DNA from: Catenulispora acidiphila DSM 44928
GTDB lineage: Bacteria > Actinomycetota > Actinomycetes > Streptomycetales > Catenulisporaceae
DNA: 64,000 bases
Reading direction: 5' to 3'
NCBI RefSeq assembly: GCF_000024025.1
Contig: NC_013131.1
Location: 1,178,001 to 1,242,000, forward strand
A program made the position numbers and the translations under genes. Shown in pieces: positions 35,658 to 37,638 of the stretch; position 1 is the stretch's first letter; each line of letters begins with the position of its first letter. The notes below the pieces were generated by a model, which was given only the letters and a program-made list of their open reading frames with translations, did not search any database and was not told the DNA's origin.

Positions 35658-36650
35658 TCAGCCCAGATCCAGCAGCTGCTCGTAGAACCCGCCGAACTCG
35701 CCCGCGGGATCCACCAGGTGGATCTCCAAGATCCAGTGGCACACACGGCCCGCGCGGTCCGTGCCCCGCATCGGCGTGGTGTTGCCCGGCGCGATGTAGG
35801 ACTGGATCTTGTCGGCGTCCATGACCTCGTGCGGGAACTCGCCGACGAGGTGTCCGGCGAAGCCCGTGCCGCCCAGTTGCCAGCCGGCGGCGCGGGCGAG
35901 GGCGTCGATCTCGGCGTGGAGGTCCGCGCCGGTGATGGCGGGGTGGTCGGCGAAGTGGCGGCGGCCGGCTTCGAAGATGCGGGGGAGATCGGCGGCGAGG
36001 CGGTGCTTGGCGGGGTCGTCGCCGAGGACGTAGGTGCGGCCGAGGTCGGCTTCGAAGTCGGCGAAGATCGGGCCGAAGTCGGCGAAGGCGATGTCGTCGT
36101 GCCGCAGGATCCGGTCCGGGGTGTTGTCGTCATAGGGGAGCAGGGTGTTCGGACCGGATCTGACGATGCGCTTGTGCCAGTGCCGGGTGGTGCCGAACAT
36201 CTCGTTGGCCAGGTCGCGGATCCGGTCGCTGATCGCGCGCTCGGACTCCCCGGCGGCGATCAGCTTGCGCGCGACCACCTCGTCGAACAGCGCGACGGCG
36301 TTGGCCTGCGCGTCGAGGAGCTGCCGGACGCGGAAGTCCTCTGCCGTCGCCGTCTCGACATAGACCCACGCCTTCGCCCCCGAGCGCAGCGCGACCGGAA
36401 CGCGGAGGTAGCCGGCCTCGAACTCGTCGGCTGCCGCGAGATCGGCGGGGGAGAGCGCGAACACCGTCCCCTCGACCGCGTCGTCCGGGGCGCCGGACTG
36501 TACCGCCGCCTGGTGCGCGTCGTCGCCTGCCGCATCCAACCGGAAGCCCGGCAGCGCGTCGGGAGTGCCGTCGAGCTCACGCCCGAACCGGGCCACCTGG
36601 ACCCGTGGCAGCTGCAAAGTCCCGTACGAGAACAACAAGTGGTCGGGCAC
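35658..36650 (-). CDS. Fusion of GGCT/AIG2-like domain and M24 metallopeptidase
   Basis: A 330-residue protein with two domains. Residues 1-110 are a gamma-glutamylcyclotransferase/AIG2-like domain: LLFSYGTLQLPRVQVARFG (substrate loop), LPGFRLD, and DEFEAGYLRVPVAL with the likely catalytic Glu. Residues 120-330 are an M24 (creatinase/aminopeptidase P) fold. Metal ligands are probably the two Asp of FADFGPIFADFEADLGRTYV, His in GHLVGEFPHE, Glu in HWILEIHLV and Glu in GGFYEQLL. Both active sites look intact. Together they could act in turn on gamma-glutamyl or X-Pro peptides (inference). The GTG start was chosen because the AIG2 domain begins there; the frame is open to 36848, so an N-terminal extension is possible. 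Confidence 0.75.
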   Translation of the reverse strand: MPDHLLFSYGTLQLPRVQVARFGRELDGTPDALPGFRLDAAGDDAHQAAVQSGAPDDAVEGTVFALSPADLAAADEFEAGYLRVPVALRSGAKAWVYVETATAEDFRVRQLLDAQANAVALFDEVVARKLIAAGESERAISDRIRDLANEMFGTTRHWHKRIVRSGPNTLLPYDDNTPDRILRHDDIAFADFGPIFADFEADLGRTYVLGDDPAKHRLAADLPRIFEAGRRHFADHPAITGADLHAEIDALARAAGWQLGGTGFAGHLVGEFPHEVMDADKIQSYIAPGNTTPMRGTDRAGRVCHWILEIHLVDPAGEFGGFYEQLLDLG

Positions 36651-36861
36651 GGGAACCCCCGGGAGTGTGGCGACCCGGGAGGCGGATCGCTGTTCGGTCT
36701 GGTGCGCGTCAAGGATATCTGCGGATATCGGCTCCCGGTGCTCACGGAGCGCGGTCGGCAGGCGCCACCCTGTTGCGGTTGGCGTAGCGGCTGGTAGGGC
36801 AGACTCCTTATGGGACGCGGCGATGGAGCTGCTCCCAGGTCGATCCACAGGAGGATGAGCG

Positions 36862-37638
36862 TTGCAGCCCAGGGCGCCGTATCAGTCCACTCAGTCCGCG
36901 GCCGCCGGCGCAGACGCTCCCCTCGAACAGATCAAGAAGCTGGCTTTGTCCCGTCCGGTCGAATACGGCGCCTTGGACCGCCTGTGCACCGGTGGCATAG
37001 CCGTGATCGCCGAAATCGACCCGACCGATCCGGCCGCAGCCGACCTCGTCAGCCGCTTCGAAGACGGCAGGGTGCGCGCGATCGCCTTCTCGGCGGGCTC
37101 GCTCACCGCGCGGGCCGAGCGCATGGTCCACATCAGGACTCATACCCACGTGCCGCTGCTGTGCCTGGAGCCGGCCGACACGAGCCACCAGCTCTGGCAG
37201 GCGCGCGCGTGTGGCGCGGACCTGATCGTCCTTCGAGCCGCGACGCTGTCGGATCTGGCGCTGTTCTCCCTCGTGGAGCGGGCCGCCTCGATCGGAATGG
37301 AAGCACTCGTCGAGGTACGGACAGGCGCTGATCTGGTGCGCGCGCTTCGGGCTCAGGCTCGGGGCGTCCTGCTGCGGCCCTCCGCCGACGCCATCCCCGG
37401 GACGCCGCAAGCGGACCTGCACGACCTGCTGTCGATGGTCCCGGACGGCGTGGTGAAGGTCGCCGAGTGCGGCCCGGGCGGCCGCTCGGATCTGATCGCC
37501 TGCGCTCGCAACGGCGCCGACGCGGTGCTGCTCGGCGCGCGCCTGCTGACCTGCCCCGACCCGGGATCGGTCGTCGCCGACCTGGCCGCGATGGGCGCGC
37601 ACCCGGCGCTGTCGCGGCGCGGCAGCCGGACGGTGTGA
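36862..37638 (+). CDS. Divergent TrpC-like (indole-3-glycerol phosphate synthase-like) protein
   Basis: A 258-residue TIM-barrel protein matching the plan of TrpC: IAVIAEI near residue 48, ACGADLIVLRAATL, GMEALVEVRTGADLVRAL, VVKVAECGPGGRSDL, and NGADAVLLGARLL. However, the TrpC catalytic signatures are changed. The Lys of EIKxxSPS is Asp (EIDPTDPAA), the KDF motif is replaced by LLCLEP, and the NNR motif is replaced by LLRPSADA. It is therefore probably not a working synthase, but a paralog with another activity or a regulator. TTG start with AGGAGG seven bases upstream. It is divergent from the GGCT-M24 gene; no trp genes lie nearby. Confidence 0.75.
   Translation: MQPRAPYQSTQSAAAGADAPLEQIKKLALSRPVEYGALDRLCTGGIAVIAEIDPTDPAAADLVSRFEDGRVRAIAFSAGSLTARAERMVHIRTHTHVPLLCLEPADTSHQLWQARACGADLIVLRAATLSDLALFSLVERAASIGMEALVEVRTGADLVRALRAQARGVLLRPSADAIPGTPQADLHDLLSMVPDGVVKVAECGPGGRSDLIACARNGADAVLLGARLLTCPDPGSVVADLAAMGAHPALSRRGSRTV

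Follow-up and report, generated by a model that had tools for sequence, protein, structure and literature searches.

A single gene of Catenulispora acidiphila DSM 44928 joins a gamma-glutamylcyclotransferase (GGCT)-like domain to an M24 metallohydrolase domain, and this fusion is genuine, rare and under selection, a new combination of two known families. The product, which is probably cytosolic, is tentatively read, at somewhat below even confidence, as a two-site enzyme that would hydrolyse gamma-glutamyl-capped nitrogen compounds in two steps.

The fused gene and its two halves

The window analysed here is the whole stretch of 64,000 nucleotides at positions 1,178,001 to 1,242,000 of contig NC_013131.1, from a genome that consists of a single contig of 10,467,782 bases. 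On its minus strand, the ORF listing gave a frame of 396 amino acids that ends at 35658 and begins with a GTG at 36848. The fused gene probably starts at the GTG at 36650, since most of the fused relatives shown carry Met at the same position (M-x-D-H/Q-LLFSYGTL), and a GGGGG lies 5 nt upstream of it. From this start, PF06094 (GGACT) and PF00557 (Peptidase_M24) are both matched by Pfam in one stop-free frame, with the following features.

35658 to 36650, minus strand: fused GGCT-M24 gene, 330 codons plus stop, GTG start at 36650
36354 to 36635, minus strand: GGACT/AIG2-like cyclotransferase domain (PF06094), from Pfam, fold predicted by model
36615 to 36626, minus strand: YGTL active-site loop, residues 9 to 12, from alignment (compare A2LD1 Tyr7–Leu10)
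36531 to 36536, minus strand: approximate site of an 11-residue deletion, from alignment with other fused relatives
36417 to 36419, minus strand: likely catalytic Glu78, invariant in 19 of 19 rows, matched to GGACT Glu82 by motif order
35766 to 36317, minus strand: M24 metallohydrolase domain, PF00557 match (Pfam), the fold continuing to the C-terminus
36132 to 36134, minus strand: Tyr173, at the position of the M24 peptidase catalytic His (model confidence below 50 here)
36078 to 36080, minus strand: presumed metal ligand D191, 47 of 47 rows
36045 to 36047, minus strand: presumed metal ligand D202, 47 of 47 rows
35850 to 35852, minus strand: presumed metal ligand H267, 47 of 47 rows
35724 to 35726, minus strand: presumed metal ligand E309, 47 of 47 rows, by order and spacing
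35679 to 35681, minus strand: presumed metal ligand E324, 47 of 47 rows, by order and spacing

The first-pass annotation had proposed that a GGCT domain with its YGTL loop and likely catalytic Glu is joined in frame to an M24 domain with likely metal ligands. The joining was confirmed within one frame of 330 codons, and the two domains, the loop, the likely Glu and the presumed ligands were supported by Pfam, alignments and models.

In the N-terminal half, PF06094 was matched with E=6e-9 and 36.9 bits (cut-off 22.8). This half was modelled and structure-searched alone, as the full-chain structural alignment covered the M24 half only; the AlphaFold model (pLDDT 88.0) matched the AIG2-like protein 2jqv (E 3.3e-6), human GGCT 3cry (1.9e-5) and human GGACT 3jud (2.2e-3) in Foldseek, and a GGCT/BtrG fold is thereby predicted for the window domain. 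Residues E78, Y81, R83, G10 and L12 are invariant across 19 GGCT rows, stand-alone GGCT proteins included, with position 9 occupied by Tyr in 16 and Phe in 3, and position 11 by Thr in 18 and Ser in 1. In mouse GGACT (A2LD1) the site is described as a Tyr7–Leu10 loop with Glu82, Ile50, Tyr88, Tyr115 and Tyr143 (PMC2954230); by motif order, Y9-G10-T11-L12 and E78 appear to correspond to that loop and to Glu82. The window domain has 101 residues, compared with 112–113 in the other fused relatives, and because these 11 residues are missing the C. acidiphila copy may be the least typical member of the fusion.

The match of the C-terminal half to PF00557 was stronger (E=5.7e-18, 65.9 bits against a cut-off of 23). 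The full-chain AlphaFold model had a mean pLDDT of 82.5 and a pTM of 0.77, with values below 50 at residues 172–175 and 273–280, and predicted a pita-bread fold for the M24 half (Z 19.5, rmsd 2.7, 204 residues aligned to 3q6d_C). Conservation was read from an alignment of 47 hand-picked rows that excludes frame-broken copies and two ligand-poor paralogues (L161, L162) and includes relatives 33–34% identical on Burkholderiaceae and Novosphingobium plasmids. None of the five presumed metal ligands varies in these rows; E309 and E324 lie outside the Pfam and HMMER matches and are assigned by order, spacing and fold. W158, H159 and W306 are likewise invariant, H311 is kept in 45 of the 47 rows and a second His, H274, in 46.

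Two catalytic positions of M24 peptidases are replaced throughout this branch. Tyr173 aligns with His in five PDB sequences, of which two represent a single protein, and in the second M24 protein of the genome; we take the aligned PDB residue to be His243 of E. coli AMPP. In the 47 rows, this position is Tyr in 39, Phe in 6, Ala in 1 and Leu in 1. The relay Arg position, two before the last Glu ligand, is Phe322 in 47 of 47 rows; since the C-terminus aligned poorly in the automatic alignment, Phe322 was located from the distance between the two Glu. In the aminopeptidases, E. coli His243 and human His395 are required for activity, and human Arg535, two before the ligand Glu537, has a role (PMC5774706). 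No Creatinase_N/AMP_N domain was matched by Pfam up to E=1, where PF00557 and PF06094 were the only matches, and no NCBIfam model reached its cut-off (PepQ, 23.4 of 630 bits; type I methionine aminopeptidase, 17.1 of 171.35 bits). The earlier suggestion of activity on X-Pro peptides is therefore weakened, as the catalytic His and Arg are replaced family-wide and the Creatinase_N/AMP_N domain is missing. The M24 half is a separate M24 branch whose substrate is probably not an X-Pro peptide; with the two peptidase catalytic residues missing, a bond other than X-Pro is probable. The 15 plasmid relatives listed are named 'M24 family metallopeptidase', are unnamed, or, in one more distant case, are called 'aminopeptidase P family protein'.

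The two ligand-poor M24 paralogues, both from Streptomyces, have lost both Asp ligands.

L161:13161-13865, plus strand: ligand-poor M24 paralogue
L162:6366-7070, minus strand: ligand-poor M24 paralogue

In these paralogues, DFGP...EADFGRT has become ELGS...EVAFAST; a methyltransferase gene adjoins and MoeA is near. They lie on a long branch and are probably non-catalytic.

Distribution, selection and origin of the fusion

Intact fusions were found in 14 genomes including that of the window, namely 7 of the window's genus, 6 of Herbidospora and Planotetraspora thailandica. Within the genus, the full-length in-frame fusion is present in 7 of 10 genomes, and the three genomes without it are 77, 81 and 90% complete. 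In wider samples, which overlap one another, the fusion occurs in 7 out of 293 genomes at order level, 2 out of 394 at class level, 7 out of 150 in the Herbidospora family, where one broken copy was found besides, and 1 out of 296 at phylum level, the last being the window's own genome. It was also found in 3 of 50 genome-contig loci among the matches listed and in none of 32 plasmid records with 80% cover. In the broken copy (G703:C12:617483-618129, in L156), a nitrate-reductase gene lies directly beside the fusion.

Both halves are under purifying selection, with dN/dS across seven pairs of 0.15–0.43 for the GGCT half and 0.14–0.45 for the M24 half by a simple estimate. An assembly or frameshift artefact that joined two genes is a negligible prospect, given the single-contig genome and the same joint in 13 further genomes, and it was rejected. 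A common architecture was likewise rejected on the few full-length matches in the order, class, family, phylum and plasmid samples, and no characterised enzyme of GGCT-M24 make-up was found among the open-licence PMC papers listed. The two outcomes that the first-pass annotation had named as fatal to its proposal, a frameshift between neighbouring genes and an architecture that is common and already characterised, thus did not come about.

The M24 part was found unfused in 47 of 50 loci among the matches listed, mostly in Streptomyces, and since most of the M24 relatives found are unfused its coupling to GGCT is optional. In a tree of 34 GGCT domains, all 13 distinct fused domains fell in one clade (99/96). 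In a tree of 85 M24 domains, built from the full set of 14 fused sequences and 71 of the 94 unfused ones and with a bootstrap that had not settled, 13 fused M24 domains formed one clade (99/99), and the M24 half of the following fusion fell inside a clade of stand-alone Streptomyces proteins (100/99).

L155:629-1651, minus strand: Planotetraspora thailandica fusion, with the M24 half from the Streptomyces stand-alone clade; a PNPOx-type gene adjoins, as it does beside some Streptomyces M24 genes

A single clade of all 14 fused M24 halves was rejected (p-AU 0.0093), in a test run after the odd placement had been spotted by eye. With the GGCT halves in one clade and the M24 halves in two places, the lineages have been joined more than once: the GGCT lineage could have met M24 twice, or one M24 half could have been swapped through recombination.

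Of the 47 unfused M24 loci among the matches listed, 4 have a separate GGCT gene no more than 5 kb away, at about 180 nt in L028 and L031, about 90 nt in L035 and 1.2 kb in L043; L028 and L031 are alike and perhaps not independent. By cluster and length, the GGCT genes of L028 and L031 are of a second fused kind, in which the partner is a GDSL/SGNH hydrolase.

L161:5370-6311, plus strand: GGCT-GDSL/SGNH hydrolase fusion, Streptomyces, from Pfam
L160:6766-7716, minus strand: GGCT-GDSL/SGNH fusion, assigned by cluster

The GGCT matches of 39–47% in frames of about 290–390 amino acids in genomes of the order may have this architecture too. A functional link between GGCT and M24 is supported by the occurrence of one GGCT lineage on two M24 lineages and by the GGCT genes near unfused M24 genes. 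The coupling of two activities put forward in the first-pass annotation has gained support from these observations; that they act stepwise on gamma-glutamyl peptides is still to be read as a suggestion.

Gene neighbourhood and proposed function

The neighbours of the fusion in the window include genes for a LuxR-type regulator, a RibD_C protein, a LysR regulator and a UbiD-type protein, and an MFS transporter gene lies 24 nt from it, tail to tail. On the other side is a gene resembling IGPS.

36862 to 37638, plus strand: IGPS-like gene, divergent (head-to-head) neighbour of the fusion, kept in five genomes of the genus including the window's

An IGPS-like gene is also found near the unfused M24 gene of genome G019. 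The IGPS/TrpC-like neighbour scored below the NCBIfam TrpC cut-offs (best 127.6 against 329 bits) and is perhaps not an enzyme of the trp pathway. No GlnR-type box was found upstream of the fusion gene, with 3 matches to the pattern in the window against 8.07 expected. A promoter and terminator scan of the locus, which is weak for such DNA, returned nothing, and the available text of a GlnR study in S. venezuelae contained no M24 gene that could be tied to the fusion (PMC3087709).

Across genomes, the M24 gene is often near a gene for a nitrate-reductase-like protein of about 1400 residues joined to a flavoprotein reductase, here labelled nasC after NF047855, which it matched below cut-off. 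Of 72 genomes searched, all chosen as M24 carriers, 50 had a nasC match and 22 had none at the limit used. The two genes lie within 5 kb of each other in 12 of these 50 genomes, from five genera, against about 0.085 expected; the count takes a single M24 gene from each genome, sets the nasC length at a nominal 4330 and is drawn from genomes that are related and thus non-independent. These 12 include one genome in which only a ligand-poor paralogue lies near nasC (G245), the broken fusion (G703) and one case with a 2.8 kb gap (G118); in 7 more of the 50 genomes the distance is 25–40 kb. A Mop/TOBE gene lies within 5 kb of M24 in 11 of the 43 genomes having one, with positions compared by eye and with the M24 copy of G044 and G245 being a 45–48% one. 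Genes for Mop/TOBE, MoeA, ModA, ModBC and sulfite-oxidase-like proteins are near M24 in some loci, and orientation varies. Other frequent neighbours are SAM methyltransferase genes (15 loci, with L013/L157 being one place counted twice) and PNPOx-type genes (8 loci). An arbitrary stretch that was queried, L143:15000-16000, gave no match.

Among the 14 intact fusions, those of G007, G011 and G023 are the only ones beside nasC. No nasC-like gene was found beside the Herbidospora and other remaining fusions within the stretches fetched, and in the genome of the window the nasC match lies 4.5 Mb from the fusion. This match (G000:C1:5751061-5751636) has a TAG inside the aligned stretch. On the Pseudonocardia plasmid pBCI1-2 (L163:7998-9233), an M24 gene is followed directly by TOBE, and formate dehydrogenase and cyanase genes adjoin.

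In the two-step reading, the N-terminal GGACT-type domain would release 5-oxoproline from a gamma-glutamyl-capped amine or short peptide, and the C-terminal dinuclear-metal M24 site would then hydrolyse the freed amino compound, probably at an amide or amidine bond that is not X-Pro. Because a cyclotransferase frees an amine, and a free amino end is what M24 substrates usually have, the uncapping should come first. The outcome would be nitrogen salvage, with 5-oxoproline and an amine or amino acid as products. Cyclotransferases are reported to convert a gamma-glutamyl end to 5-oxoproline and a free amine by means of a catalytic Glu (PMC12756093), and Streptomyces makes gamma-glutamylated polyamines and ethanolamine for nitrogen use (PMC8998196, PMC5403932, PMC6529630). 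These compounds are candidate substrates of the fusion, and not more. Against the two-step reading stand the 11-residue deletion in the window GGCT domain, the GGACT site residues Ile50, Tyr115 and Tyr143 for which no counterpart was located, the location of 11 of 14 intact fusions away from nasC, the lack of a GlnR-type box, the optional coupling of M24 to GGCT, the chance that the Planotetraspora case is a recombination swap and the relatedness of the genomes behind the linkage counts.

In one of the main alternatives, the GGCT domain would have ceased to be an enzyme and would act in binding or assembly at the N-terminus, where M24B peptidases have Creatinase_N. The GGCT domain does occupy that position, with no Creatinase_N/AMP_N match in the protein; the window copy is without 11 residues, and there is a weak Foldseek match to allophanate hydrolase, in which a domain of similar fold has another job. 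This explanation is nevertheless considered unlikely, as E78, Y81 and R83 are invariant in all 19 rows, the loop is kept as described above and the selection on this half is similar to that on the M24 half. It is also improbable that the chain holds two active enzymes without a common substrate, the fusion being neutral or serving co-expression only: the sporadic distribution and the many unfused M24 relatives would fit this explanation, but the same GGCT lineage occurs on two M24 lineages, and some unfused M24 genes have a GGCT gene nearby.

A further possibility is that the M24 branch serves the handling of molybdenum cofactor or nitrate reductase, with GGCT modifying that job in a few lineages. 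The proximity counts for nasC and Mop/TOBE, the adjoining MoeA, ModA, ModBC and sulfite-oxidase-like genes and the plasmid-borne TOBE gene after M24 all speak for such a role, which is nonetheless judged quite improbable: orientation varies, many M24 loci, 11 of the 14 intact fusions among them, have no such neighbour, and we know of no chemistry that connects this branch with molybdenum or nitrate handling. The strongest form of the two-step reading would combine these elements, making the fusion a dedicated uncap-then-hydrolyse enzyme for a gamma-glutamylated nitrogen compound, born of at least two separate joinings between a gamma-glutamylcyclotransferase and a divergent M24 branch whose chemistry is new and which belongs to nitrate/molybdenum assimilation in actinobacteria; in full, this is an unlikely proposal.

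Fusions name pathway partners, and this one suggests that gamma-glutamyl uncapping and metal-dependent hydrolysis belong together. The M24 branch occurs here and there among actinomycetes, repeatedly in the vicinity of nitrate-reductase and molybdenum genes. Knowing its substrate would assign it a function and extend the uses of gamma-glutamyl protection in actinobacterial nitrogen metabolism.

Comparison with known systems

The M24 half shares the pita-bread fold with prolidases, aminopeptidase P, methionine aminopeptidase, creatinase and the ectoine hydrolase EutD (Z 17.0–19.5, 50 matches listed), and the five presumed metal ligands and the second His of its branch are as in known M24 enzymes. 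The branch differs from these enzymes in that the catalytic His is replaced by Tyr or Phe in 45 of 47 rows and the relay Arg by Phe in all 47, and in having an invariant Trp158-His159 pair and, in the fusion, a GGCT domain instead of Creatinase_N.

For the GGCT half, the fold, the YGTL loop and the likely catalytic Glu are common to the window domain and to GGACT (human 3jud, mouse A2LD1), although the bacterial domain shares 24% identity with 3jud when the structures are aligned. The 3jud and A2LD1 structures are single-domain and of 144–149 residues, whereas the bacterial domain stops near residue 101, and counterparts of GGACT Ile50, Tyr115 and Tyr143 were not located in it. Y81 lies three residues after E78, whereas Tyr88 of A2LD1 lies six after Glu82, so that their equivalence is unsure.

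As in the GGCT-M24 fusion, the GGACT domain of the Streptomyces GGCT-GDSL/SGNH fusions is N-terminal to an unrelated hydrolase, and these genes are found near M24 genes; they differ in having a GDSL-type partner and a GGCT lineage separate from that of the GGCT-M24 fusions. Allophanate hydrolase (4iss) and urea amidolyase (5i8i) contain a domain of similar fold, with weak Foldseek matches (E 0.014 and 0.03, respectively). They carry an amide hydrolase of nitrogen metabolism in one chain with such a domain, which in allophanate hydrolase has another job, and they differ from the fusion in domain order, partner family and chemistry.
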